Shown piece by piece: positions 12,679 to 32,075 of a DNA stretch of 34,306 nucleotides. The translations under genes were made by a program, and so were the position numbers. The stretch is from contig JAOPYB010000491.1 of assembly GCA_025964835.1 (NCBI GenBank), forward strand, positions 1 to 34,306, written 5' to 3'. Under the pieces are notes generated by a model. That model searched no databases and was not told the origin of the DNA. It was given only the letters and a program-made list of their open reading frames with translations. Each line of letters begins with the position of its first letter. The first letter of the stretch is position 1. Source of the stretch: Nocardioides sp. (GTDB lineage Bacteria > Actinomycetota > Actinomycetes > Propionibacteriales > Nocardioidaceae).

Positions 12679-13355
12679 CGGGGGTGTCGCTTGACTCCGC
12701 CGTTCGATCCCGGCTCGACCTCACGCCTGCACTGTCGCTGCGTGCCGACCGTGATGTGGTCGAGCTCCTCAGCGCCTCCTGTCACGCCTGTGTGCCGTGC
12801 CGCCGCGGGCTGCCCGACCACTGCACGTCCCCGGCCGCGGCGACGCGCGTCGTGGCCTGGGAGTCGGTCGGTGCCGCCGCACCCTCGTTGGCGGCGTGGG
12901 GGGCGATGCTGGCCGCCGTCGACCAGCTGGCCCACTCAGGTGGGGCCGCCCCGCGGGTCGGGCTGGTCGGTCGCGGCGACGCCCTCGCCCTGATGCGCGA
13001 CTGTCTGGCGTCCGGCGGCATCCTCGCGCTCGTCGCAGAGCCCGACGGCGACCTGGACCAGGCGGAGGTGCGCCGTCTGTCGTCGCTCCTCCGCGAGGGA
13101 GGTCACGGCACGGCCGGGCCTCCGGACGTCGTGGTCGCGGTCGACGGTGACCTGGGCCTGGCGTCGCGGCTCGTGCGACGGGGCGGTGTGCTCGCCGCAC
13201 CCGTCACGGTCACCTCCCCGGTGGAGATGACGGCCCTGGTGCAGCGCGAGCTCACCGTCGTACCCACCCGTGACATGGCCGGCACCGCTGCCGGATCTCC
13301 CTGCCTGCGCACCGTCGGTGCGTGGACCCGTCGAGAGGAGCCCGTCCGTGGCTGA
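12675..13355 (+). CDS. Truncated MDR (zinc alcohol dehydrogenase-like) protein lacking the catalytic domain
   Basis: 226 residues from GTG 12675 (4-bp overlap with the permease; GTG 12684 is possible). The N-terminal part holds CHACVPCRRGLPDHC, the C-x2-C-x2-C-x7-C structural-zinc lobe of medium-chain dehydrogenases. The rest (PRVGLVGRGDALALMRDCL, DVVVAVDGDLGLASRLVRRGGVL) resembles a reduced Rossmann half. The first 80 or so residues of a normal MDR, with the catalytic Cys and GHE zinc ligands, are absent, and the dinucleotide Gly motif is weak. A complete MDR is encoded two genes downstream. It is open along its full length and translationally coupled, so it looks maintained rather than decaying. 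Scaffold, subunit or unknown enzyme; function not assignable. Confidence 0.6.
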   Translation: MTGVSLDSAVRSRLDLTPALSLRADRDVVELLSASCHACVPCRRGLPDHCTSPAAATRVVAWESVGAAAPSLAAWGAMLAAVDQLAHSGGAAPRVGLVGRGDALALMRDCLASGGILALVAEPDGDLDQAEVRRLSSLLREGGHGTAGPPDVVVAVDGDLGLASRLVRRGGVLAAPVTVTSPVEMTALVQRELTVVPTRDMAGTAAGSPCLRTVGAWTRREEPVRG

Positions 13356-17161: not shown

Positions 17162-17533
17162 GTGATCCGTTGGGTCTATCTCATCAAGTACCCCGAGGGT
17201 GTGGCGATCGAGGACGGCGAGCGCTGGTACCTCGGAACGCACACCCAGGAGGCCAAGCAGATGGTCGACTACGGCCTGGTGTCCTACAAGACGTGGAGTC
17301 GGGTCACGGCGCCGATGGGGACCAAGAGTCGCTCGGTCGACTTCCTCAACCAGTGGGTCCGGGTGACGGAGCTGGTCTTCCCGGACTGGGACTCCTACAA
17401 GGCGGCGGTCATCGACGCGCCGATCGAGTACAGCGGAGCGCCGTACGGCGAGAAGGGTTTCGAGTACACCACGGTCTTCCTCGGCGAGGAGCCGGAGTAC
17501 GACCTCCTGAAGGAGATCCCCCAGGTCTCCTGA
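17162..17533 (+). CDS. EthD-like small protein (dimeric alpha-beta barrel)
   Basis: 123 residues from GTG 17162 with aaggag upstream. The frame RWVYLIKYPEGVAIEDGERWYLGTHTQE and the C-terminal YTTVFLGEEPEYDLL fit the EthD/dimeric alpha-beta-barrel class. It aligns with the C-terminal half of the protein at 26319 (WYLGTHTQEAKQ against WYLGHHTREGRQ; VRVTELVF against ARYTELCF; FLGEEPEYDL against FIGTSPDLDV). EthD proteins are small partners in ether and other xenobiotic degradation clusters; related barrels act as cyclases, isomerases or monooxygenases. No catalytic role can be assigned. It is the last gene of this operon, followed by a shared terminator. Confidence 0.7.
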   Translation: MIRWVYLIKYPEGVAIEDGERWYLGTHTQEAKQMVDYGLVSYKTWSRVTAPMGTKSRSVDFLNQWVRVTELVFPDWDSYKAAVIDAPIEYSGAPYGEKGFEYTTVFLGEEPEYDLLKEIPQVS

Positions 17534-18953: not shown

Positions 18954-18996
18954 AACCTAATTCGATATTGACATCAGAGTCAATACTTTGTACCGT
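18954..18996. promoter_or_regulatory. Perfect palindromic operator with divergent promoters
   Basis: TATTGAC-atcaga-GTCAATA (18966-18985) has perfect 7-bp arms. On the plus strand TTGACA (18968-18973), a 17-bp spacer and TACCGT (18991-18996) form a promoter for the SDR operon. On the minus strand TTGACT (18983-18978), an 18-bp spacer and TAGGTT (18959-18954) form one for E2. One bound dimer would cover both -35 elements. This is the best of the four regulon sites. Confidence 0.75.
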
Positions 18997-19050
18997 CCCG
19001 GATGGGTTGTGGCGCCGGTCACGCACAGCATCGCGGACGAGGAGATGGGC

Positions 19051-19878
19051 ATGGAGCTGTTCGGGAAGATTGCGCTGGTCACCGGGGCGAGCCGTGGGCT
19101 GGGCAAGTGCATCGCGCTGGAGCTCGCGTCGAGGGGAGCCGACGTCGCGCTGGCCGCGCGCACCGCGGCGCCGGCGGCGGACGCCTTCGCCCCCGGCACG
19201 CTGCAGGAGACAGCGGCGATGATCGAGGCCATGGGTCGTCGCGCTCTGATCGTGCCGACCGACTTGGCCGACCAGCAGGCCGTCGTCGACATGGTCGAGA
19301 CGACGGTGCGGGAGCTGGGCGGGATCGACCTGCTGATGAACAACGCAGGCATGGGCACCGAGGGCGACATCTGCCAGACCGAGCTCGCCGACTGGAACGC
19401 GATCATCGCGGTCAACCTGACCTCCCAGTTCCTCGCGATCAAGACCGCCGGGCCACACATGCGCGCCCGAGGCGGGGGGGCGATCGTCAACATGGGCTCC
19501 TACCTGGCGCGCGAGTTCCCGGATCCCGACGACAGCAATCCGGTGTCCTCAGCCGCCACCGCGGCCTCGGGACCGGGGATGACGCCGTACGGACTCACGA
19601 AGGCCGCCATCGAGCGGCTCACGACCGGGGCTGCGGCCGACCTGGCGTCGTATGGCATCCGCGTGAACTGCGTGGCGCCCCGGTGGACCGAGACGGAGGG
19701 TCTCAACGCGTGGTTCCCTGAGATCGACAAGACTGAGTGGGAGCGCCCGGAGGACTGGGCCCGCGTCGTGGGCTTCCTGATGTCGCCAGCGGCGGCCGGG
19801 GTCACGGGCCGGATCATCCGGTCCGAGGAGAAGGAACTGATCTGTTCGGCGCAGGCCGGCAGCCCGGTCCTCGTCTGA
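19051..19878 (+). CDS. SDR-family oxidoreductase
   Basis: 275 residues from ATG 19051, chosen because gaggag precedes it and the SDR fold starts immediately; the track start at 18988 would lie upstream of the predicted transcription start. Features: VTGASRGLGK cofactor loop, LLMNNAG, Ser in VNMGSYL and YGLTK active site. An insertion between Ser and Tyr (EFPDPDDSNPVSSAATAASGPG) is longer than usual and would shape the substrate pocket. First gene of the long plus-strand operon. Probably a dehydrogenase for a hydroxy-acid or hydroxyacyl intermediate; exact substrate unknown. Confidence 0.88.
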   Translation: MELFGKIALVTGASRGLGKCIALELASRGADVALAARTAAPAADAFAPGTLQETAAMIEAMGRRALIVPTDLADQQAVVDMVETTVRELGGIDLLMNNAGMGTEGDICQTELADWNAIIAVNLTSQFLAIKTAGPHMRARGGGAIVNMGSYLAREFPDPDDSNPVSSAATAASGPGMTPYGLTKAAIERLTTGAAADLASYGIRVNCVAPRWTETEGLNAWFPEIDKTEWERPEDWARVVGFLMSPAAAGVTGRIIRSEEKELICSAQAGSPVLV

Positions 19879-19905: not shown

Positions 19906-20922
19906 ATGGCGAACATCGAGCAGCAGCTGCACGACTACCTGAGCGCGTCCGGGTCGGAGTACCTGACCGACCCGAGCGCCCTGGAGATCACCGCCTTCGC
20001 GCGGATGCCCGAGGGGTGGTCGCGTGAGTGCTTCATGTTCACACTCGAGTGGAAGGACGCCAACGGGGACCAGTCGCGCGACCTGATCCTGCGCAAGGAC
20101 CCGGCCGGCAGCCTCGTCTACACCGACCGTCTGGTCGAGGCGGGCGTGATCCGTGCCCTGGCCGGCACGTCGATCCCGGTGCCGAAGATCTGGTCGCTGG
20201 AGACCGACAACGCTGCGCTCGGTTCGCCCTTCATGATCATGGAGAAGCTGAGCGGCACCTCGTCGCCCGCGGTGCTCTACGCGCCGGACAACGCAGAGAA
20301 CCGCATGAGCATCGGCCGCGACTTCATCCGGCACCTGGCGACCCTGCACAGCCTCGACGTCGAGGCGCTGGAGCTGCCGTTCTTCGAGGACGTGCCGACT
20401 GTGGACAGCGCCGGTGAGGCGTCGCTGCGGCACTGGGAGCAGACGATGGCCGAGCAGCAGCTCGAGCCGCAGCCGTTCCTGACCCAGGTGACCCGGTGGC
20501 TGCGCAACCACATGCCGGTCGCGCCGCGGGTGTCCCTGCTGCACGGCGACTACCGCACCGGCAACTTCCTCTTCGCCGACGACCACGTCACCGGCGTCGT
20601 CGACTGGGAGCTGTCCCGCCTCGGAGACCCGCTGGAGGACCTCGGCTGGGTATTCAAGAACCTGTGGCGGCTCGACGACAGGATCTGCGGCTTCTTCGAC
20701 CGAGAGGAGTTCATCGCGCTGTACGAGGAGTACTCCGGGATCGCCGTCGACCGCGACGCGCTGCACTTCTGGGAGGTGTTCGCGGAGTACAAGCACAGCA
20801 TCATCGGGCTCACCGGCACTCGCACGGCCGTGGACCGCAAGACCGACGAGCTGAACTTCTCGATCGCCCACCTCTACCTGCCGCCGCTCTTCCAGGAGCA
20901 AGCCGTCCGGATCGGGATCTGA
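19906..20922 (+). CDS. Aminoglycoside-phosphotransferase-fold kinase (LvaA/ACAD10-like)
   Basis: 338 residues with a kinase fold of the APH family: N-lobe Lys in DLILRKDP, catalytic loop LLHGDYRTGNFLF (His213, Asp215, Asn220) and metal-binding VVDWELSRLGDP (Asp233). FMIMEKLSG is the usual hinge segment. Homologues of this subgroup (ACAD10/11 kinase domains, LvaA of levulinate catabolism) phosphorylate the hydroxyl group of 4-hydroxyacyl-CoA so that phosphate can be eliminated. The context supports that role over antibiotic resistance: the next genes are a small helical protein, an SDR and an acyl-CoA synthetase, the same set as lvaB, lvaD and lvaE. Substrate inferred, fold certain. Confidence 0.85.
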   Translation: MANIEQQLHDYLSASGSEYLTDPSALEITAFARMPEGWSRECFMFTLEWKDANGDQSRDLILRKDPAGSLVYTDRLVEAGVIRALAGTSIPVPKIWSLETDNAALGSPFMIMEKLSGTSSPAVLYAPDNAENRMSIGRDFIRHLATLHSLDVEALELPFFEDVPTVDSAGEASLRHWEQTMAEQQLEPQPFLTQVTRWLRNHMPVAPRVSLLHGDYRTGNFLFADDHVTGVVDWELSRLGDPLEDLGWVFKNLWRLDDRICGFFDREEFIALYEEYSGIAVDRDALHFWEVFAEYKHSIIGLTGTRTAVDRKTDELNFSIAHLYLPPLFQEQAVRIGI

Positions 20923-20931
20923 GGAGACCGC

Positions 20932-21381
20932 ATGCGACCCACCACCACGGAGCTCCTCGAGCAGCTCGATCATGTCCTGGAGACGCAGATCATGCCGCGG
21001 CTGCCCGACGAACACACCAAGGCGCGGATGAACGTCGCCAGCCAGATCCTGCGCGCCGTCCACAACCGGGTGCTGATGCAGGGCGAGACGATCGCCGCCG
21101 ACAACGCGGACATCGTCGCCCTGCTCGCCCGACTCGACGGACGCTCGGACCCGGGAGGCGAGGCGCCGTACGTCAGCGTCGACACCCTCGCCGCGCGCAA
21201 CGACGAGCTCAAGGCACAGCTCGTCGGCGCCCTCAACGGCCTTGATGACCTCCCCGAGGAGGCACGTGCCGCCGCCGACGCGGCAGCCAACGCCTACCTC
21301 CGCCGTCAGCTCGACCGCGAGCTCGAGCTGACGGCACTGCCCTCCTTCGGGGACGCCCCCGTCGACCTGCCACTCGTCTGA
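20932..21381 (+). CDS. Small helical protein, possible LvaB-like (DUF6285-type) kinase partner
   Basis: 149 residues, all alpha-helical in appearance (RPTTTELLEQLDHVLETQIMP, ARMNVASQILRAVHNRV, DELKAQLVGALNGL, AAANAYLRRQLDRELELT). It starts 9 bp after the kinase stop. In levulinate catabolism a similar-sized protein of unknown fold (LvaB) is needed with LvaA for phosphorylation of 4-hydroxyvaleryl-CoA. The position, length and RPTxxELLE...VASQILRAV pattern agree with that family. Without a profile search the family call stays tentative. Confidence 0.6.
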   Translation: MRPTTTELLEQLDHVLETQIMPRLPDEHTKARMNVASQILRAVHNRVLMQGETIAADNADIVALLARLDGRSDPGGEAPYVSVDTLAARNDELKAQLVGALNGLDDLPEEARAAADAAANAYLRRQLDRELELTALPSFGDAPVDLPLV

Positions 21382-21408
21382 CCCGACCCACTGCGAAAGG
21401 CACGTCCC

Positions 21409-22311
21409 ATGACCGAGGAAGTCCTCGACCCTGAGCTCAGCGCTGTTCTCGACAACGTGCTGGCCAAGGATGCTTCGCGCTTCTCCCTGCACGGGCGGGT
21501 CGCCGTGGTCACGGGGGCGTCGTACGGCCTGGGGCAGCTCTTCGCCGAGACCCTGGCCGCCGCCGGGGCAGATCTCGTGCTGACCGCCCGCTCCGAGGAG
21601 AAGCTCCAGGACACGAAGAAGCTCGTCGAGGCGCGCGGTAGCCGTGCCATCACGGTGCGTGCCGACATCCGCGTGTACGACGAGGTCGCGGCCGTCACCC
21701 AGGCCGCGGTCGACGAGTTCGGCCGGCTCGACGTGATGGTCAACAACGCTGGCATCGGCGACCCGCGAGGCCTGCACTCCGAGATCCTCGAGCCGGAGAA
21801 GCCCAAGGAGGAGATCGAGACCGACCTCATCGGCACCTGGTACGGCATGCGCGCCGCGGCGCCTCACATGCTCCGGCAGGGGCGAGGCAGCATCATCAAC
21901 ATCTCGTCGATCCTCGGCATGGCCGGCCACGAGCATCGCACCCCCGGCTACGTCGCGGCCAAGGCCGGCGTCAACATGCTGACCCGCTCGCTCGGCTGCG
22001 AGTGGGCCGACCGCGGGGTCCGGGTCAACGCCCTGGCGCCCAACTACTTCCTCTCCGAGTCCACCCGCTGGATGTTCGAGCAGAGCGGCATGGACGACTG
22101 GGTCCGCAGCCGGACGCCGATGCGTCGCGCGGGCCGCAGCGAGGACCTGATCGGGCCTCTGCTCTTCCTCGCGAGCGACGCGGCGTCGTACGTCACCGGC
22201 GCGGTCATCCCCGTGGACGGCGGCTGGAGCGCCAGTGCCGGCTACGCCCAGACCGCGCCGCCCTTCGACGGCTGGGACGAGGCCAACCGGCCGATCGTCC
22301 CCGAGGTGTGA
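21409..22311 (+). CDS. SDR-family oxidoreductase
   Basis: 300 residues; gaaagg upstream of ATG 21409. An N-terminal extension of about 25 residues (EVLDPELSAVLDNVLAKDASRFSLHG) precedes VTGASYGLGQ; then VMVNNAG, Ser in INISSILG and Tyr-x3-Lys in GYVAAKAG, and a C-terminal VTGAVIPVDGG plus a short tail. Likely NAD(P)-dependent oxidation of a hydroxyl to a ketone, for example a 3-hydroxyacyl-CoA step as done by LvaD. The acyl-CoA synthetase gene overlaps its stop by 4 bp. Confidence 0.88.
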   Translation: MTEEVLDPELSAVLDNVLAKDASRFSLHGRVAVVTGASYGLGQLFAETLAAAGADLVLTARSEEKLQDTKKLVEARGSRAITVRADIRVYDEVAAVTQAAVDEFGRLDVMVNNAGIGDPRGLHSEILEPEKPKEEIETDLIGTWYGMRAAAPHMLRQGRGSIINISSILGMAGHEHRTPGYVAAKAGVNMLTRSLGCEWADRGVRVNALAPNYFLSESTRWMFEQSGMDDWVRSRTPMRRAGRSEDLIGPLLFLASDAASYVTGAVIPVDGGWSASAGYAQTAPPFDGWDEANRPIVPEV

Positions 22312-23894
22312 GCGGGGTGGGTGACTCCGATGCCACCTCCGGGCGCAGCGACATCGAGGAGCTGATCCGGCGCCACGCCGCCGAGCGGCCACGTGACACC
22401 TGGCTGCTGTGGAAGGACGAGGCCTACTCGTGGTCCGACGTCCTCGACGCGGCACGCAAGGTCGCCAACGGGCTGGTCGAACGCGGCGTCCGGCCGGGTC
22501 AGCGCGTGGCGTTGATGATGCCGAACGGCCCGGAGTTCCTGTGGTCGCACTTCGGCGTCGTCTTCGCGGGCGCCTTGTCGGTGCCGCTGAACATCTCGCA
22601 GCGCGGCACCACGCTCGAGTACATCCTCGCCGACTCCGGCGCGGTCGCGACGATCTTCGCGGACGACCTGCGCGACGTCGTGACCCGAGCGGCGGGAGCG
22701 TGTCCCGACCTGCGCGAGCTGATCACCGTCGGCGGCGTCCGAGACGCCGAGGTCCGGCACACGTTCGACGACCTGATGGCATCGCCGGCCGCCGACCTCG
22801 ACCTGGGCAACGACGCCGCCGGTGGGGGCGTCGGCCTGATGTACACCTCCGGCACCACCGGCCCGCCCAAGGGCGTGGTGACCAAGGCCTACGACCTGCG
22901 CAGCCTCGAGGCCCTCATCGCCGAGGCCGGCATCCGGCCGGGCGAGACGATGTACACCCCGCTGCCGCTGTACCACGGCAATGCCCTGGTGGTCTCCGCG
23001 CTCGGGTCGATGGTCGCAGGCGGGCGCCTCGCCCTCGGCGCGAAGTTCAGCGCGTCCCGGTTCTGGGACGACATCCGCCGGTACGACGCGGTGGAGTTCA
23101 ACGCCCTCGGCGGGATCATCCCGATCCTGCTCAAGCAGCCGCTGCGGCCCGACGACTCCGACAACCCGGTGCGTGTGGTGCTCTCCGCGGGCGCACCCTC
23201 CGACGAGCGGTGGGACGAGTTCCAGGACCGGTTCGGCGTGCGCCTGGTCGAGTGGTTCGGCATGGTCGACTCGCCCGGCACGCTGCTCAACGCCTCCGGA
23301 CGCCCCGGCAGCATGGGCCAGCCGGTCGGCGGCGTCGACTTCCGCATCGTCGACGACCACGACCAGGAGCTCCCGCCGGGCCAGGTCGGGGAGCTTCTGT
23401 TCAAGCACCCCGCCGGGCAGCTCTCGCACTACCACAACAACGAGCAGGCGACCCAGGACGCCTATCGCGGCGGCTGGTTCCACTCGGGCGATCTCGCCTC
23501 GATGGACGCGGACGGCTGGTTCTACTTCCGGGGCCGCAAGAAGCAGTCGATGCGTCGCCGCGGCGAGAACATCTCCGCCTGGGAGATCGAGTCCGTGGTG
23601 ATCCAACATCCCGCCGTGCGCGAGTGCGCGGCGTACGGCGTGCCGTCCGAGATGGGCGAGGAGGAGGTCGTGGTGGCCGTGGTCCCGGTGGAGGGTGCAC
23701 AGCTGCGCCCGCAGGACGTCGTCACCTTCTGCGAGGGGTCCCTGGCCCACTACGCGGTGCCCCGTTACGTCACGGTCGTCGCCGAGCTGCCCAAGACCGG
23801 CACGCAGAAGATCCAGTACGAGGCGTTGAAGCAGACCTGGTCGCCGGCGGACGCCTGGGACCGCGAAGCACATGCCGAGGAGGCACGCTCATGA
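22308..23894 (+). CDS. Acyl-CoA synthetase (AMP-forming)
   Basis: 528 residues from GTG 22308, overlapping the SDR stop (GTGA). ANL superfamily motifs in order: phosphate loop LMYTSGTTGPPKGVV (about 179), LPLYHGNALVV, VRVVLSAGAPS, WFGMVDSPGTLL, adenylate-binding SGDLASMDADGWFYFRGRKK with the hinge, RRRGENISAWEIES, and the C-terminal catalytic Lys in KTGTQKIQYEAL. It activates a carboxylic acid to its CoA ester with ATP. It resembles the crotonobetaine/bile-acid ligase branch, which takes medium-sized polar or cyclic acids. In the lva-like arrangement it equals LvaE. It would provide the CoA ester used by the kinase and thiolase. Confidence 0.92.
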   Translation: MSGVGDSDATSGRSDIEELIRRHAAERPRDTWLLWKDEAYSWSDVLDAARKVANGLVERGVRPGQRVALMMPNGPEFLWSHFGVVFAGALSVPLNISQRGTTLEYILADSGAVATIFADDLRDVVTRAAGACPDLRELITVGGVRDAEVRHTFDDLMASPAADLDLGNDAAGGGVGLMYTSGTTGPPKGVVTKAYDLRSLEALIAEAGIRPGETMYTPLPLYHGNALVVSALGSMVAGGRLALGAKFSASRFWDDIRRYDAVEFNALGGIIPILLKQPLRPDDSDNPVRVVLSAGAPSDERWDEFQDRFGVRLVEWFGMVDSPGTLLNASGRPGSMGQPVGGVDFRIVDDHDQELPPGQVGELLFKHPAGQLSHYHNNEQATQDAYRGGWFHSGDLASMDADGWFYFRGRKKQSMRRRGENISAWEIESVVIQHPAVRECAAYGVPSEMGEEEVVVAVVPVEGAQLRPQDVVTFCEGSLAHYAVPRYVTVVAELPKTGTQKIQYEALKQTWSPADAWDREAHAEEARS

Positions 23895-25090
23895 GGAACG
23901 TCTACGTCGCGGGTGCACACATGACCCGGTTCGCCAAGCTGCCCGACGAGACCGTGCGGACGCTGACCGAGGCCGCTGTGGGCGGTGCTCTCGCCGACGC
24001 CGACATCGCACCCAGTGAGGTCGAGACGACCTTCTTCGGCAATGCGATCAGCGGGATCATCACCGGCCAGGAGATGGTGCGCGGGCAGTCAGCCCTACGC
24101 AACACCGGAGTCCTCGGCGGCCCGGTGGTCAACGTCGAGAACGCCTGCTCGTCCTCGTCGTCGGCGTTCAACCTCGCCTGGCTCGCAGTCGCCTCCGGGC
24201 AGGTTGACGTAGCGCTGGCTGTCGGCTCGGAGAAGATGACCGAGCCGACCGGCCTCAAGGCCAAGGCGGCGCTCGAGTCCGCCGTGGACCTCGAGGAGGT
24301 CGCCGTCCTCAAGGCTCGGCTCGGCGACAACGACGAGGGAGAGGGCGACCGCTCCTTCTTCATGGACCTGTACGCCGGCACCGCCCGCGCCTACCTCGAG
24401 CGCACCGGTGCGACAGCCGTGGACTTCGCACAGGTCTCCGTCAAGAACCACCTGCACAGCTCGCTCAACCCGCACGCTCAGTTTCGCAAGACCACCACTG
24501 TCGAGGAGGTCCTGGCGAGCCGGACGATCGTCGACCCGCTGACGCTGTTGATGTGCTCGGCTATCGGAGACGGCGGCGCTGCGGTGGTGCTTGTCTCCGA
24601 GGAGATGCTCCGGACCGACCGTGCCAAGGTCAAGGTGCTGGCGAGCGTCCTGACCTCGGGCTACGCACAGCAGACGACGGCGTACGACGACTCGGCTGTG
24701 GTTCGCGCCGCGCGGAAGGCGTACGAGATCGCGGGAGTGGGGCCCGAGGACCTCGACCTGGTCGAGCTCCACGACGCGGCCGCACCGGCCGAGCTCGTGC
24801 TCTACGAGGAGCTCGGGCTGTGCGCGCAGGGCGACGGCGCGAAGCTCCTGGCGTCCGGCGAGACGACGCTCGGCGGCCGGGTCCCGGTCAACACCAGCGG
24901 CGGGCTGCTGGGCAAGGGGCACCCGGTCGGGGCGACCGGGTGCGCGCAGATCACCGAGATCGTCGACCAGATGTGGGGTCGCGCGGGAGCGCGTCAGGTC
25001 CCCGGCGTCCGGGTCGCGCTCGCGGAGAACGGCGGCGGCTACATCGGGAGCGACTCGGCGGCCGCCGTCGTCAACATCCTGTCGCGCTGA
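23891..25090 (+). CDS. SCP2-type thiolase / acetyl-CoA acetyltransferase family protein
   Basis: 399 residues, ATGA overlap with the CoA ligase. The nucleophilic Cys is in NVENACSSSSSAF; a distal active-site His in GKGHPVGATG follows NTSGGLLGKG. The usual HDCF or NEAF motif is replaced by VELHDAAAPAEL, and the C-terminal GGGxG loop reads ENGGGYIG without a Cys, as in SCP2 thiolases. Likely thiolytic release of acetyl- or propionyl-CoA from a 3-ketoacyl-CoA, or, in some non-canonical relatives, retro-aldol or carrier roles. A second, classical thiolase is encoded at 32167. Confidence 0.88.
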   Translation: MRNVYVAGAHMTRFAKLPDETVRTLTEAAVGGALADADIAPSEVETTFFGNAISGIITGQEMVRGQSALRNTGVLGGPVVNVENACSSSSSAFNLAWLAVASGQVDVALAVGSEKMTEPTGLKAKAALESAVDLEEVAVLKARLGDNDEGEGDRSFFMDLYAGTARAYLERTGATAVDFAQVSVKNHLHSSLNPHAQFRKTTTVEEVLASRTIVDPLTLLMCSAIGDGGAAVVLVSEEMLRTDRAKVKVLASVLTSGYAQQTTAYDDSAVVRAARKAYEIAGVGPEDLDLVELHDAAAPAELVLYEELGLCAQGDGAKLLASGETTLGGRVPVNTSGGLLGKGHPVGATGCAQITEIVDQMWGRAGARQVPGVRVALAENGGGYIGSDSAAAVVNILSR

Positions 25091-25133: not shown

Positions 25134-25916
25134 GTGGAGTTCAAAGAGGTCGTCGGCAACCGGCGCTCCGTGAGGCACTTCCTGCCCTACAAGCAGGTTG
25201 AGCGGGAGAAGATCCAGGTCATGCTCGAGGCGGCCAACCGGTCGTCGAGGTCGATGAACGCCGACTACGTCAAGGCGATCGTCGTCAACCGTGACGAGCT
25301 CAGTGAGGAGCTGCGCGACTCACTGCGCAACCCCACGACGACGCTCGACCTGGACATGGCGCCCACCTACATCATGTGGTTCATCAACCTGAAGTACCCG
25401 GAGGGCACCAAGGAGCGGCTCAAGCAGCTCATCGACCACGGTGTCAACACGCCCAGCCACGGCTGGTCGCACGCGTACGTCGACGGCGTCATCCAGAAGA
25501 CCGTCATCGACAAGATCGCCGGTGACGACGCCCGCCTGAACTGGATGGGTGCGATCGAGACCGGACAGGCCATCGCCCAGGCACTCCTGGCGGCGTACGA
25601 CGAGGGCCTCGGCGCGTGCCTGCACAACTTCACCGACACCAAGATCCGCGAGGCGCTCAACGTGCCAGACCACTGGCGCCGCGCCTGGATCATGCTGGTC
25701 GGCTACCCGGCGATGGGTGCCGAGGACGGTGGCCAGCGCCCCCGTCGTCCGCTGGGCGAGAACTTCAAGTTCGGCAACGCCGACACGCCGTTCGAGTCCG
25801 ATCCCGCGGTAGTTGCACGACTCACCGAGGCCAAGCTCATCCAGGCCCCCAGTCCCACGCCACACCGGTTCGAGGAGATCCGTCTCTTCAACCGCGAGTT
25901 CGGACTGCCCGAGTGA
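25134..25916 (+). CDS. Nitroreductase-family FMN-dependent oxidoreductase
   Basis: 260 residues from GTG 25134 with aagga upstream. N-terminal NRRSVRHFLPYKQVEREKIQ is the FMN-phosphate-binding segment of the nitroreductase fold; AIETGQAIAQALLAAYDEGLGACLHNF and NVPDHWRRAWIMLVGYP complete it. Family members reduce nitro groups, quinones and enones, or oxidise or dehalogenate in specialised clusters. Here a flavin-dependent reduction or desaturation of a ring or enone is plausible. The nearest homologues should be checked, since fold membership does not fix chemistry. It follows the thiolase by 43 bp. Confidence 0.82.
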   Translation: MEFKEVVGNRRSVRHFLPYKQVEREKIQVMLEAANRSSRSMNADYVKAIVVNRDELSEELRDSLRNPTTTLDLDMAPTYIMWFINLKYPEGTKERLKQLIDHGVNTPSHGWSHAYVDGVIQKTVIDKIAGDDARLNWMGAIETGQAIAQALLAAYDEGLGACLHNFTDTKIREALNVPDHWRRAWIMLVGYPAMGAEDGGQRPRRPLGENFKFGNADTPFESDPAVVARLTEAKLIQAPSPTPHRFEEIRLFNREFGLPE

Positions 25917-25947: not shown

Positions 25948-26322
25948 ATGTCTGACGTCATGACGAACGAGCACACCGTCGAAAGCCTGAAGCCGACCTT
26001 CGAGGTCAAGCGTTGGCTCGAGAGCGCCAAGCTGGACACGGAGCCAGAGATCGAGCAGGACTCCCGGGTGCGGGTGCTGGCCCAGTTCTGCAACCATCAG
26101 GGTCGCCACCCCAAGGACATGATCGAGGCGGTCCTGCGCGGGGGCGAGGAGGACGGGCAGTACACGATCGCCATCAAGGCCCGCCGCGAGCTGGACGAGG
26201 CCATCAACACCTTCGGCGACACGCTCGGCCTCTCCTTGCACCAGAACATCACCGCCGGCAACGTCGTCCGGAGCTTCTTCATCCACAACGGCGTGCAGAT
26301 GCAGGGGCGTCCCTCGCTGTGA
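25948..26322 (+). CDS. Conserved-looking protein of unknown function
   Basis: 124 residues from ATG 25948 (gagagag upstream); soluble, no signal peptide or membrane segment. Segments TFEVKRWLESAKLDTEPEIEQD, FCNHQGRHPKDMIEAVLRGG and NITAGNVVRSFFIHNGVQMQG look structured. I do not recognise the family. It is translationally coupled (GTGA overlap) to the two-domain EthD protein and follows the nitroreductase, so a partner role with one of these is the simplest guess. Confidence 0.7.
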   Translation: MSDVMTNEHTVESLKPTFEVKRWLESAKLDTEPEIEQDSRVRVLAQFCNHQGRHPKDMIEAVLRGGEEDGQYTIAIKARRELDEAINTFGDTLGLSLHQNITAGNVVRSFFIHNGVQMQGRPSL

Positions 26323-27110
26323 CGACCGGAAGCCTGCTCGGTCCCCAACCGCTGAAGTGGACCTACATCTACGGGCTCGGCGACTCGCCAGAGGCGGCCG
26401 CCTGGCACCGGGACGAGTGGGTGCAGGGACTCGTGGACGTCGACGGAGTGAGCCGCGTCGTCGTCCACGAGTCTCGCAAGGCCCCCCAGCCCGACGACGT
26501 CTCGCGCCCGCTCAACGACTGGGCCGGTCTGGTCGAGGTGCACCTGGACGACCTGTCCGTCGTCACCGGCCCGCTGGCCGCACGCGCCCGCGCCGAAATG
26601 GGCGGCCGGTTCACGGCGCTGCGCGGCATCGTCTCCACGGTGAGCGAGGAGTACGACCTGCGCCGCGACGTGCCGGCACAGCAGCACCCGTACGCCACCG
26701 AGAGCATCACCTGGAAGACCGTGCCACCGCCGGCGGGCGAGCCGGGCGACACCGACGACCTGTGGCGCTACGTCTACTTCTTCCGCTACAAGGACGGGGT
26801 CCCGTGGGTCGAGGGTGAGGACTGGTATCTCGGCCACCACACCCGTGAGGGCCGTCAGCTCCCGGGTCTGCGGCGCTACGTGACCTGGCGACGCCGACGC
26901 TGCGACGCCCTGACCGGCGAGGATGCCGCCCTGTTCAACGGCTTCGCTCGCTACACCGAGCTGTGCTTCGAGACCTTCGAGGGCTGGCACGACGCGACCC
27001 ACGCCCGCGGCCCCAACTGGCGGATGCCCGAGGCATGGCCGGGCGGCGTGTGGACCGACTACCAACAGCTGTTCATCGGCACGTCGCCCGACCTCGACGT
27101 CACCGGCTGA
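26319..27110 (+). CDS. Two-domain EthD-like (dimeric alpha-beta barrel) protein
   Basis: 263 residues from GTG 26319. The C-terminal half (about 145-263: WRYVYFFRYKDGVPWVEGED, WYLGHHTREGRQ, ARYTELCFETFEG, YQQLFIGTSPDLD) aligns with the whole single-domain protein at 17162. The N-terminal half (LKWTYIYGLGD, WHRDEWVQGLVDVDGVSRVVVHES) looks like a divergent second copy of the same fold, so the monomer may mimic the usual dimer. The function is unknown; barrels of this type are often found as helper or catalytic proteins in xenobiotic catabolism. Confidence 0.65.
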   Translation: MTTGSLLGPQPLKWTYIYGLGDSPEAAAWHRDEWVQGLVDVDGVSRVVVHESRKAPQPDDVSRPLNDWAGLVEVHLDDLSVVTGPLAARARAEMGGRFTALRGIVSTVSEEYDLRRDVPAQQHPYATESITWKTVPPPAGEPGDTDDLWRYVYFFRYKDGVPWVEGEDWYLGHHTREGRQLPGLRRYVTWRRRRCDALTGEDAALFNGFARYTELCFETFEGWHDATHARGPNWRMPEAWPGGVWTDYQQLFIGTSPDLDVTG

Positions 27111-27138: not shown

Positions 27139-27927
27139 ATGCGTATCGCACTCACCAACGACGATGGGGTGCACGCGCCCGGCATCGAGCACCTGGCTGT
27201 CGCCCTGCATGCGGCCGGCCACGACGTCGTCATCTGCGCCCCCGACGGCAACCTGAGCGGCGCCGGTGCGTCCACCGGTGCGGACCTGCGCAAGATCAGA
27301 GGCATCGCGATCGAGCCCACCACCGTCGCCGGACTCGAGGCGCACCGCGTCTCGTCGACGCCGGCCGTGTGCGCGCTCCTTGCGATCCGAGGAGCCTTCG
27401 GCGGGCCCGTCGACCTGGTGATGTCCGGGATCAACCCGGGCACCAACATGGGCCCGAGCGTGCTCCACTCCGGCACGGTCGGCGCCGTCGTCACGGCGGC
27501 CAACTTCGACGTGCCCGGCCTGGCCGTGTCGATGGACGCCGAGGAGGACGCGCCCGCCGAGATCTTCCAGGGTGCCGCGACCTGGGCGTTGTTCGTGCTC
27601 GACAACCTCGACCTCCGGGGTGCGCCGCGAGCCCTGAGCCTGAACGTACCGGGCGTCCGCGCGGCGGACGTCCGCGGTGTGCGCGCCACCGGTCTCGACG
27701 CCACTCCCGGCTTCCGGGCGGCAGGCGTGCGCACCGTCGAGCCGCTGCCTTCGGGAGGCCGCCTCGTGTCCTTCGTGTACGAGCCGGTCGAGCGGACGCT
27801 CGACGAGGACGGTGACGTGGCTGCCCTGCGTGCGGGCTGGGCCAGCCTCAGCTGGCTCTCGTCGATCGCCGCGGACGACGCGCCCCGGGGAGCCTGGCGC
27901 GCAGACCGGGTTCCGACCTCCGTCTGA
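27139..27927 (+). CDS. SurE-like 5'/3'-nucleotidase / phosphatase
   Basis: 262 residues. It keeps the family's metal and phosphate ligands: IALTNDDGVHAPGI (Asp-Asp), Ser in GNLSGAGAS and Asn in MSGINPGTNMG, plus HSGTVGAVVTAANFDVPGLAVS. SurE proteins are metal-dependent phosphatases for nucleoside monophosphates and other phosphate esters. It sits inside a CoA-catabolic operon with a small-molecule kinase, away from the usual stress-gene context, so it may act on a pathway phosphoester or on a cofactor precursor. It is 29 bp after the EthD gene and 30 bp before the regulator. Confidence 0.88.
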   Translation: MRIALTNDDGVHAPGIEHLAVALHAAGHDVVICAPDGNLSGAGASTGADLRKIRGIAIEPTTVAGLEAHRVSSTPAVCALLAIRGAFGGPVDLVMSGINPGTNMGPSVLHSGTVGAVVTAANFDVPGLAVSMDAEEDAPAEIFQGAATWALFVLDNLDLRGAPRALSLNVPGVRAADVRGVRATGLDATPGFRAAGVRTVEPLPSGGRLVSFVYEPVERTLDEDGDVAALRAGWASLSWLSSIAADDAPRGAWRADRVPTSV

Positions 27928-27957: not shown

Positions 27958-28674
27958 ATGCCCAACGAATCGCGTGCCGGACCGACCGAGCGGACGGGAC
28001 CGACGTCTTCAGCGGCCGCGCTGACGCCGAGCGCTGACGACGCGGACTCCGGCCTGGTCCGGGCCGACGCCCTGGCAGGCCTCTCGGCGAAGGGGCTGCG
28101 TACGCGCCGACGGCTGCTCCAGGGGGCACGAAGCGCCTTCGAGCTGAAGGGCTCGTACGTCGACACCCGCATCTCCGACATCGTCAAGGCGAGCGGGGTC
28201 GCCTACGGGAGCTTCTACACGTATTTCGACTCGAAGGAGGAGCTCTTCTACGAGCTCGCCGTCGAGGTCGTCGGCGAGATGTACGTCGAGGGAACCTCGC
28301 GATACCGCGGCGACAACCCGCTCGAGCGCATCGATGCGTCCAACCGGCAGTTCCTCGACTCGTACCGTCGCCACGCCGCGATGATGACGATCATCGAACA
28401 GGCGGCGGCGCTCTACCCGGAGTTCCGTGCCCTCCGTCGTCGACTGCGCCAAGGGTTCGTCGATCGCATCTCCGCCAACTTCGAGAGGCTCTCGAAGGCG
28501 GGCCGGATCGACACCTCGATCGACCCCGTCATCGCTGCACACGCGCTGGTCTCGATGACCGACAACTTCGGCTATCTCTGGTTCGTGCTGGGCGAGGCCT
28601 TCGAGGACGAAGTGGCGTTGGCGACCCTCACCCAGCTGTGGGGGAACTCGCTGGGGCTGCGGTCGCCCTCATGA
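27958..28674 (+). CDS. TetR-family transcriptional regulator
   Basis: 238 residues. An unusually long N-terminal extension (about 45 residues, Ala/Ser/Asp-rich) precedes the DNA-binding domain: TRRRLLQGARSAFELKGSYVDTRISDIVKASGVAYGSFYTYFDSKEELF. The C-terminal ligand domain (QFLDSYRRHAAMMTIIEQAAALYPEFRALRR) resembles regulators of acyl-CoA or steroid-type catabolism. It is the only DNA-binding regulator of the catabolic region in the window and is the last gene of the operon headed by the perfect operator, so autorepression is likely. Its stop shares the palindrome tcatga with the convergent CofD stop (6-bp overlap). The proposed targets are the four TTGAC-N6-GTCAA sites. Confidence 0.9.
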   Translation: MPNESRAGPTERTGPTSSAAALTPSADDADSGLVRADALAGLSAKGLRTRRRLLQGARSAFELKGSYVDTRISDIVKASGVAYGSFYTYFDSKEELFYELAVEVVGEMYVEGTSRYRGDNPLERIDASNRQFLDSYRRHAAMMTIIEQAAALYPEFRALRRRLRQGFVDRISANFERLSKAGRIDTSIDPVIAAHALVSMTDNFGYLWFVLGEAFEDEVALATLTQLWGNSLGLRSPS

Positions 28675-29616
28675 GGACAGCACGTCCACGGTCGCCAGGC
28701 AGGCGCTGACCAGTGCGGCCCGGCTGGCCGCGTCCTGGGCCACGATCGGTGCGACCGCACCGATGAGGCCCGACGGGAGGTCGTGCGCCAGGTGTGCGTC
28801 AGCGGGGTCGAGCACGACGTGCGTGGCGACATCCGCGAAGAGCTCCGCGACGGCCAGGGGTTCGTGGGCGATCCCGCGTGCGGCGAGCAGCGCGGCGCGG
28901 GCGTGGTGCCGCCGACGGTCACGCTCGAGCTCGGGCGACGTGCTCACCACCGGGCTGATCAGGACGACGGGGAGACCGGCCGCCTTCCGGGCCGTCAGCA
29001 GGTCGCGGATCCCGTCGAGCTCGAGGGTGGGTTCGAGCGAGGCCACCGGGCTGGATGACGTGAGCACGACCACGTCCGCGTCCGCCATGGCCGGGAGCAC
29101 GGACGGCGCCGGGGTCCGCGGACCCGGCCACCGCACGTCCTGGACGGGCGGAGCGGCGTGGTCGCGGACCAGCCACTCCTGGAAGGCCGAGGTCCCCTTG
29201 TCGGTCACGATGACCGTGCCACGCGGGTGCAGGCTGGCGGGCACGAGCCGGGCTGTGATGCCCACCTCCCGGGCGAGCACGTCGGTGACCGATGCCAGGT
29301 CGGCGCCCCCGGAGAGCAGGGCGCTGCGTCGTTCGTGGTGCGCCCGGTCCTGGGTGCCGAGGTTGAACCAGGGTGTGGCCGTCGAGCCGGACGGGGGGAA
29401 CTCGTCCCCGCGGATACCCCATCCGCGCTCCTCGTCGAGGCGGCCGCTGAGCGCGTAGATGACGGCGTCCGTGTCCGGACACACGAGGAGGTCGTCAGCG
29501 ACCCAGTCGTCGGCGACGTTGGTGACGAAGGTCGATCGGTCGGCCAGACCCTCCTGGGCGAGTGCCAGCGCGAATCGCGCGCCGCCAAGGCCGCCGCAGA
29601 GTGCCGTGATCCTCAT
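28669..29616 (-). CDS. CofD/FbiA-family transferase (F420 biosynthesis), divergent
   Basis: 315 residues; ggaggag precedes ATG 29616. CofD/FbiA joins a phosphorylated three-carbon unit (from LPPG or EPPG) to the deazaflavin FO, forming F420-0 or its dehydro form. Landmarks: CGGLGGARFALAL, NVADDWVADDLLVCPDTDAVIYAL, DEERGWGIRGDEF, WFNLGTQDRAHHERR, FQEWLVRDHAAPPV, VLISPVV. Where typical FbiA has an LLPMSDD motif, this protein reads LVPASLHPRG, near the donor site, so its substrate may differ. It is last in a minus-strand operon with ACAD, SDR and MaoC genes, not with fbiB. The family call is firm; the exact product is uncertain. Confidence 0.87.
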   Translation of the reverse strand: MRITALCGGLGGARFALALAQEGLADRSTFVTNVADDWVADDLLVCPDTDAVIYALSGRLDEERGWGIRGDEFPPSGSTATPWFNLGTQDRAHHERRSALLSGGADLASVTDVLAREVGITARLVPASLHPRGTVIVTDKGTSAFQEWLVRDHAAPPVQDVRWPGPRTPAPSVLPAMADADVVVLTSSSPVASLEPTLELDGIRDLLTARKAAGLPVVLISPVVSTSPELERDRRRHHARAALLAARGIAHEPLAVAELFADVATHVVLDPADAHLAHDLPSGLIGAVAPIVAQDAASRAALVSACLATVDVLSS

Positions 29617-30863: not shown

Positions 30864-32012
30864 TCAGCTGGTGAGCTGGCGCCCGATGTAGTCCTTGAGC
30901 GTCTCGGTCGATCCGGCGTACACCGTCTGCACCCGGCCGTCGAGCCAGGACTGCGAGATGCTCGACTCCGCCATGTAGCCGAACCCGCCGTGGAGCTGCA
31001 GGCACTCGTCGGCGACTCGCCGCTGCAGCTCGGTGGTCCACCACTTGGCCTTGGCGGCGTCGAACGCCGAAAGATCACCCTGGTTGTGCTCCTCGATGCA
31101 CCGGTCCACGTAGGCGCGACCGATGTCGATCTCGGAGGCGAGGCCCGCCAGGGTCATCCGGACGTGCTGCAGGTCGGCGAGGCGGCCACCGAAGGCCTTG
31201 CGGTCGCAGACGTACTCGAGTGTCGACGCGAGCATGGTCTCGCTGCAGGCCACCGCCATGACGCTGACGCTGAGCCGCTCCTGCGGCAGGCCCTCCATCA
31301 GGTGGTAGAAGCCGCGGTCCACCTCGCCGAGGAGGCCCTCGCGGGAGATCCAGACGTCGTCGAAGAACAGCTCGGCGGTGTCGGACTCGTGCTGGCCGAT
31401 CTTGCGGAGCTTGCGTCCCTTGGTGAAGCCCGGGGCGTCCGCCGGCACGACCACCAGGCTGATGCCCCGGTGGCCGGCGTCGGGATCGGTCCTGACCGCG
31501 ACGATGACGAGATCGGCGTTCCAGCCGTTGGTGATGTAGGTCTTCTGGCCGTTGAGGACCCACCCTCCGTCCGCGGCTGTCGCCGTGGCCCGGATCGACT
31601 TCAGATCGCTACCCGCGTCCGGCTCGGTCATCGCGAGAGCCGTGATCAGCTCACCGGTCGCGAATCCGGGAAGCCAGCGGGCCTTCTGCTGGGGGGTCGC
31701 GAGGCCGAGGAGGTACGGCGCCACGATGTTGGTGTGGATGCCGATGCTCGATCCCAGCCCGAGCGAGCCGGCACGACACAGTTCCTCGACCAGGACCGCG
31801 TTGAAGCGGAAGTCGTCGACGCCGCTGCCGCCGTACTCCTCGGGCACGGAGATGCCGAGCAACCCGGTGGCGCCGGCGCTCAGCCAGAGCGAGCGCGGAG
31901 TGAGGCCGTCCTCGACCCACTGGGCGAGGTGCGGAGTGATCTCGCGCTTCACGAAGGTGCGCGCCATGTCCTGGAAGGCAAGGTGCTCCCCCCCGAGCAG
32001 TCGTCGCTTCAT
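30864..32012 (-). CDS. Acyl-CoA dehydrogenase
   Basis: 382 residues from ATG 32012, chosen because ggaaggagg lies directly upstream; the track start at 32075 would lie upstream of the predicted transcription start. ACAD motifs: ALAMTEPDAGSDLKSI (FAD/substrate loop), WVLNGQKTYITNG, DRKAFGGRLADLQHVRMTLA, LQLHGGFGYMAES and the C-terminal VYAGSTETLKDYIGRQL with the Glu region. It introduces the alpha-beta double bond in an acyl-CoA with electron transfer to ETF. In levulinate-type pathways an ACAD homologue also eliminates the phosphate from 4-phosphoacyl-CoA, so this could instead be the LvaC counterpart. First gene of the minus-strand operon, under the 32060 operator. Confidence 0.92.
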   Translation of the reverse strand: MKRRLLGGEHLAFQDMARTFVKREITPHLAQWVEDGLTPRSLWLSAGATGLLGISVPEEYGGSGVDDFRFNAVLVEELCRAGSLGLGSSIGIHTNIVAPYLLGLATPQQKARWLPGFATGELITALAMTEPDAGSDLKSIRATATAADGGWVLNGQKTYITNGWNADLVIVAVRTDPDAGHRGISLVVVPADAPGFTKGRKLRKIGQHESDTAELFFDDVWISREGLLGEVDRGFYHLMEGLPQERLSVSVMAVACSETMLASTLEYVCDRKAFGGRLADLQHVRMTLAGLASEIDIGRAYVDRCIEEHNQGDLSAFDAAKAKWWTTELQRRVADECLQLHGGFGYMAESSISQSWLDGRVQTVYAGSTETLKDYIGRQLTS

Positions 32013-32046
32013 GCCGCCTCCTTCCGGGTGACGTGGGACCGGGCCC

Positions 32047-32075
32047 AAACTAGGTGATCTTGACATCAGGGTCAA
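32047..32075 (-). promoter_or_regulatory. Operator and promoter of the acyl-CoA dehydrogenase operon
   Basis: TTGAC-atcagg-GTCAA (32060-32075) is a perfect 5-bp-arm site. On the minus strand TTGACC (32075-32070), a 17-bp spacer and TAGTTT (32052-32047) form a promoter for the ACAD operon. The operator covers its -35. Confidence 0.7.

Follow-up and report, generated by a model that had tools for sequence, protein, structure and literature searches.

The Pseudomonas lvaABCDE operon is responsible for levulinate catabolism, with LvaAB acting as a 4-hydroxypentanoyl-CoA kinase, and the conversion of 4-hydroxyacyl-CoA to 2-enoyl-CoA is carried out by ACAD10/ACAD11 and by bacterial pairs of a kinase and an acyl-CoA dehydrogenase with an HCMR motif. 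The locus described here, located on contig C516 of a Nocardioides genome (3.56 Mb, 72%-complete), raises the question of whether a kinase of this kind operates in an actinobacterial catabolic operon and, above all, what replaces or supplies LvaC, which constitutes the chief interest of the module. The whole stretch of DNA analysed, 34,306 nucleotides long, is referred to as the window. A preliminary description of this DNA had matched four consecutive genes to lvaA, lvaB, lvaD and lvaE, with the reservation that the substrate is probably not levulinate itself.

The canonical lva operon of a Pseudomonas aeruginosa plasmid (L032), reached by tblastn against plasmids, was used as the yardstick. 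Its genes encode, in order, a PrpR-like regulator, a phosphotransferase, LvaB, an acyl-CoA dehydrogenase, an SDR, an acyl-CoA synthetase, a DUF485 protein and a symporter; the lvaB product, annotated as '4-hydroxypentanoyl-CoA kinase subunit LvaB', is a DUF6285 protein (Pfam E 5e-24), and LvaC carries R...HCMR. Background on the lva system was taken from three sources (PMC6692424, PMC12440821, PMC11342911). In Pseudomonas putida, LvaB was pulled down with LvaA, and lvaA, lvaB and lvaC mutants do not grow on levulinate (PMC6692424), while the HCMR motif was shown to be necessary in ACAD11 (PMC12440821). No explanation of the contribution of LvaB to LvaA was found in the literature on lva consulted here, nor any mention of DUF6285 in the full-text literature searched.

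Organisation and conservation of the gene cluster

The four genes at 19906-23894 were recovered as tightly spaced, consecutive open reading frames on one strand, in the order previously described (APH kinase, small protein, SDR, acyl-CoA synthetase), and all but the small protein were identified by Pfam. The kinase and small protein genes are separated by 9 nt and the small protein and SDR genes by 27 nt, whereas the SDR and ligase genes overlap by 4 nt, the ligase starting at a GTG that overlaps the stop of the SDR. Since the + strand genes between 18988 and 28674 are separated by 9 to 43 nt or overlap shortly, their spacing makes it likely that they form one operon. The features of the cluster are the following:

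upstream of the operon: Rbs-type importer, SDR, polyol-type Zn-dehydrogenase and E1alpha/E1beta/E2 genes
18988-19878, + strand: SDR (Pfam adh_short), 27 nt upstream of the kinase, a neighbour conserved in the relatives
19906-20922, + strand: LvaA-like APH-fold kinase, 338 aa (Pfam APH, E 8e-37)
20932-21381, + strand: divergent LvaB/DUF6285-like small protein, 149 aa (by profile rank, reciprocal search and HHalign)
21409-22311, + strand: LvaD-like SDR, 300 aa (Pfam adh_short_C2, E 3e-55; 43% identity to LvaD)
22308-23894, + strand: AMP-forming acyl-CoA ligase, 528 aa (Pfam AMP-binding, E 1e-60)
23891-25090, + strand: thiolase of the SCPx/BbsB-like class (Pfam Thiolase_N and Thiolase_C_1; NCBIfam), overlapping the ligase stop by 4 nt, 83% identity in L030/L031
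25134-25916, + strand: nitroreductase-like protein (Pfam E 6e-18), operon member
25960-26322, + strand: conserved 120-aa protein of no family, with a 4-nt overlap with the next gene
26319-27110, + strand: 263-aa protein
27139-27927, + strand: SurE-family phosphatase (Pfam SurE, E 7e-41), its start inferred from the beginning of the SurE match
27958-28674, + strand: TetR regulator
28669-29616, - strand: CofD/FbiA-like protein (about 170 bits, curated cut-off 257)
downstream of the operon, beside the CofD-like and acyl-CoA dehydrogenase genes, - strand: MaoC and SDR
30864-32075, - strand: acyl-CoA dehydrogenase of an LCAD-like class (best PDB matches 2pg0 and human LCAD)
beyond the - strand genes, + strand: thiolase and SDR

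The sugar-type importer and the TPP-dependent dehydrogenase named in the preliminary description are both present, the former through its Peripla_BP_4, ABC and BPD_transp_2 components in Pfam and the latter through the E1 genes. The EthD proteins that it also placed nearby are supported by no Pfam or NCBIfam match.

The module is real, conserved and rare. Over its comparable part, the cluster shows synteny with both Nocardioides soli DSM 105498 and the MAG Yes46-02. In these two, kinase, small protein, SDR and ligase remain neighbours, and identity to their counterparts in the window amounts to 74-80% for the kinase and the small protein, 86-87% for the SDR and 79-80% for the ligase. A search of 60 same-genus genomes did not find the small protein, and when some 85,000 species were scanned, by a method that detects close relatives only, the cluster was returned in N. 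soli and Yes46-02 alone.

The kinase

The kinase carries the motifs HGDYRTGN and DWELSRLGDPLEDLGW, the HxD....N and DWE signatures of an APH-fold catalytic subunit being present as HGDYRTGN and DWELSRLGDP. Its identity to LvaA is 28% over 307 aa. With LvaA as the query, the cluster kinase was the top match in all three Nocardioides genomes (E 1e-32 to 1e-35). Their other kinases scored no better than 2e-14 or 2e-15, a margin of some 18 orders of magnitude or more. In the maximum-likelihood tree, 21 canonical DUF6285 kinases including LvaA formed one group (100%) and the ACAD10/11-type kinases of the same superfamily a separate clade (100%), with the window kinase outside both and associated with the Rhodococcus and L103 kinases at weak support (49-61%). 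As it belongs to neither supported clade, the kinase is, judged by its sequence, a deep side branch, LvaA-like rather than an LvaA orthologue. The two CoA-contacting arginines of the ACAD11 model (PMC12440821) are apparently not conserved in it, and LvaA too seems to be without them.

The small protein and its relatives

The small protein has no Pfam match, scoring far below the Pfam cut-off, and the NCBIfam scan was likewise empty; a PDB sequence search gave chance matches only, and tblastn against plasmids found nothing. Profile comparisons were more informative. When a profile of 17 DUF6285 sequences was searched against 3,927 ORFs (3,906 non-DUF6285), the 21 known members were followed immediately by the window small protein (E 6e-5), first among the 3,906 others, and then, ahead of chance ORFs, by those of L031, L030, L103, L034 and one of L033; omitting L003 and L004 left a similar order with weaker scores (E 0.008 for the window protein). 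The reciprocal profile, built from the window family, placed kinase-adjacent DUF6285 proteins first, and HHalign aligned this family with DUF6285 proteins at a probability of 91-93% (45-80% without L003 and L004), against at most 1.4% in 40 column shuffles. The resemblance resides mainly in the N-terminal 50-75 residues. Weak relatives in the phylum sample at L002, L003 and L004 are each encoded immediately 3' of an APH kinase, those of L003 and L004 being DUF6285 by Pfam. Two further weak phylum matches, an apparent sigma-factor-like ORF (L005) and one with no kinase neighbour (L006), were discarded as chance.

On these profile comparisons, the small protein is a divergent LvaB-like (DUF6285-related) protein, so that the relationship to LvaB anticipated earlier is borne out by HMM rank and reciprocal search, at scores below the Pfam cut-off. 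It had also been described as all-helical; an AlphaFold model built from three close sequences predicts it so, with low confidence (pLDDT 52).

DUF6285 proteins and such kinases are regularly found together. In 20 sampled regions (19 from the family search plus that of L003), the DUF6285 gene invariably has an APH kinase as its immediate neighbour, and in one (G114) the two are clearly fused in a single ORF (L092:7998-9425, - strand), a natural fusion that supports a physical complex. Variovorax SRS16 plasmid 3 (L033) and Rhodococcus sp. ZPP plasmid pRZP2 (L034) encode kinases that are about 30-34% identical to that of the window. The kinases of L033, L034 and L103 are directly followed by a small protein weakly matching the same profile, whereas the gene neighbourhoods of these pairs differ from that of the window. 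With Pfam-invisible small proteins beside such kinases joining the LvaB group, the 'kinase plus small subunit' class becomes larger, and testable.

The SDR and the acyl-CoA ligase

The LvaD query retrieved the cluster SDR as the top match in the window's own genome (E 9e-46, versus 4e-32 for the next) and in N. soli, and as the second match in the third genome. Genome-wide best-match tests and profile tests thus agree, and the correspondences to LvaA, LvaB and LvaD hold. For LvaE, what stands of the preliminary description is the presence of an acyl-CoA ligase (28% identity to LvaE); the correspondence is only generic, because each genome has several ligases that lie nearer to LvaE. In the window's own genome, four further ligase loci give better LvaE matches, and the window ligase was rejected as an LvaE orthologue.

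Absence of LvaC from the cluster, and HCMR/HAMR dehydrogenases elsewhere in the genomes

In having kinase, small DUF6285-like protein, SDR and acyl-CoA ligase in this order on one strand, the window resembles Pseudomonas lvaABCDE. It differs in that no LvaC lies between small protein and SDR, the small protein is longer and far diverged, the ligase is not LvaE-like and the kinase falls outside the LvaA/DUF6285 clade; moreover, a TetR regulator and an Rbs-type ABC importer accompany it, in contrast to the sigma54-type PrpR-like regulator and acetate-type symporter of L032. The acyl-CoA dehydrogenase at 30864-32075 was considered as LvaC and rejected: it reads EGLPQERLSVSVMAVA and YAGSTETL at the R...HCMR and catalytic-Asp positions, and because it is without the R...HxMR motif and the catalytic Asp of DG(P/A)xEVH, the cluster contains no LvaC.

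No HCMR dehydrogenase was found in the window cluster or in the compared parts of L030 and L031. HCMR/HAMR dehydrogenases are encoded outside the cluster in all three Nocardioides genomes, adjoining a kinase of a different type that has no small subunit, and the window's genome has one such kinase and HCMR dehydrogenase pair on contig C300. The window kinase is of the same superfamily as those of ACAD10/ACAD11-type pairs and probably performs the same kind of chemistry, but these pairs combine an HCMR dehydrogenase with no small subunit, whereas the window operon has a small subunit and no adjacent HCMR enzyme.

Across the 20 DUF6285-kinase regions, an HxMR dehydrogenase occurs within about 8 kb in five, a conventional one adjacent to the kinase in six and none in nine, these dehydrogenase counts being lower bounds because some stretches end at contig ends. 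That HxMR dehydrogenases lie near only five of the sampled regions raises the question of the fate of the phosphorylated intermediate in the others. At L086, L087, L093, L094, L097 and L099, the kinase and DUF6285 pair adjoins an acyl-CoA dehydrogenase with ENRIRQAASSLGAAQ...TEGAEEIQ, not HxMR.

Proposed function and alternatives

On balance, we favour the reading that an LvaAB-like, two-subunit kinase phosphorylates a hydroxyacyl-CoA made by the ligase and the SDR, and that the phosphate is lost in trans. The ligase would convert an imported or pathway-derived carboxylic acid into its CoA ester, and the LvaD-like SDR would reduce a keto group, probably in gamma, to a hydroxyl. Kinase and small protein, assembled into one complex, would then phosphorylate this hydroxyl with ATP, probably at the gamma position of the hydroxyacyl-CoA, making it a leaving group. 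Loss of the phosphate to give an enoyl-CoA may take place in trans, through an ACAD10/11-type (HCMR) dehydrogenase encoded elsewhere or an unrecognised enzyme, and the neighbouring thiolases, MaoC, SDRs and LCAD-type dehydrogenase could complete the degradation by beta-oxidation. Levulinate is unlikely to be the natural substrate, in keeping with the preliminary description, and from the importer and the dehydrogenases one may suspect a polar precursor. If the operon works as proposed, phosphorylation-assisted hydroxyl removal would contribute to the actinobacterial catabolism of something besides levulinate.

A hydroxyacyl-CoA kinase is suggested by the best matches to LvaA and LvaD, the rank in the DUF6285 profile search, the constant adjacency of kinase and DUF6285 (20/20), the LvaA-LvaB pull-down (PMC6692424) and the HCMR dehydrogenases encoded elsewhere in all three genomes. 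Against it count the lack of LvaC in the cluster, the position of the kinase outside the 100%-supported LvaA clade, the small protein's score below the Pfam cut-off with a mainly N-terminal match, the ligase that is not LvaE-like, the apparently missing CoA-contact arginines of ACAD11, and the fact that the HCMR enzymes elsewhere already have adjacent kinases of their own.

An alternative is a kinase complex acting on a free hydroxy acid, polyol or sugar-like compound delivered by Rbs-type import, instead of a CoA ester. Such a role, which we consider unlikely, is consistent with the Rbs-type importer and the polyol-type Zn-dehydrogenase in the same cluster, with the SurE phosphatase in the operon, and with a kinase that forms a deep branch of its own in a cluster without LvaC; however, the genes closest to it in the operon encode an acyl-CoA ligase, a thiolase and an LvaD-like SDR, and its small subunit is LvaB-like.

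Somewhat less likely still, a hydroxyacyl-CoA might be phosphorylated and the phosphate used otherwise, for instance in C-C cleavage, decarboxylation or removal by SurE, so that no LvaC would be needed. The lack of an HCMR dehydrogenase in the window cluster and in the compared parts of L030 and L031 points in this direction, as do the DUF6285-kinase regions, where HxMR dehydrogenases are near five of 20 and conventional ones next to the kinase in six, but HCMR enzymes are encoded elsewhere in each genome and a phosphoacyl-CoA is not a known substrate of any of the cluster's enzymes.

It is highly improbable that the protein is a usual antibiotic kinase of the APH family, or a small-molecule kinase of generic type, standing in this catabolic operon by chance, as its APH Pfam family and weak APH(3') NCBIfam similarity might suggest, for the APH(3') score of 54 bits is far under the curated cut-off of 205 (an assignment rejected on this basis), the other antibiotic kinase NCBIfam models, macrolide Mph included, score lower, the best PDB relatives are acyl-CoA-dehydrogenase-associated kinases and ACAD11, the operon and small partner are kept in three species, and the kinase does not group with antibiotic kinases, a grouping that the preliminary description had named as contrary to its proposal.

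Extending the hydroxyacyl-CoA kinase reading beyond this locus, we put forward as a tentative conjecture that LvaB-like subunits may mark a broad class of hydroxyacyl-CoA kinases with two subunits, mostly with no LvaC-type partner nearby, of which Nocardioides would represent a deep branch with a new substrate, handing its phosphoacyl-CoA to an undescribed elimination or cleavage enzyme.

Additional features of the cluster

The nitroreductase-like protein (25134-25916) shares 95-96% identity with its counterparts in the two relatives, compared with 67-89% for most of its neighbours, and shows very weak similarity to the C-terminal part of FbiB and to BluB. Besides the divergent F420-type transferase of the cluster, a canonical FbiA is encoded elsewhere in N. 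soli and in Yes46-02. The products of 17162-17533 and 26319-27110, neither of which has a Pfam or NCBIfam match, are related to each other (39% over 97 aa, L031 copy versus window). A 223-aa ORF at 12684-13355, without a family match and overlapping the next SDR gene, contains a Zn-dehydrogenase-like cysteine cluster (CHACVPCRRGLPDHC). A TrwC relaxase domain (1547-2233, - strand), on the left side of the window, hints at a mobile element near the cluster.
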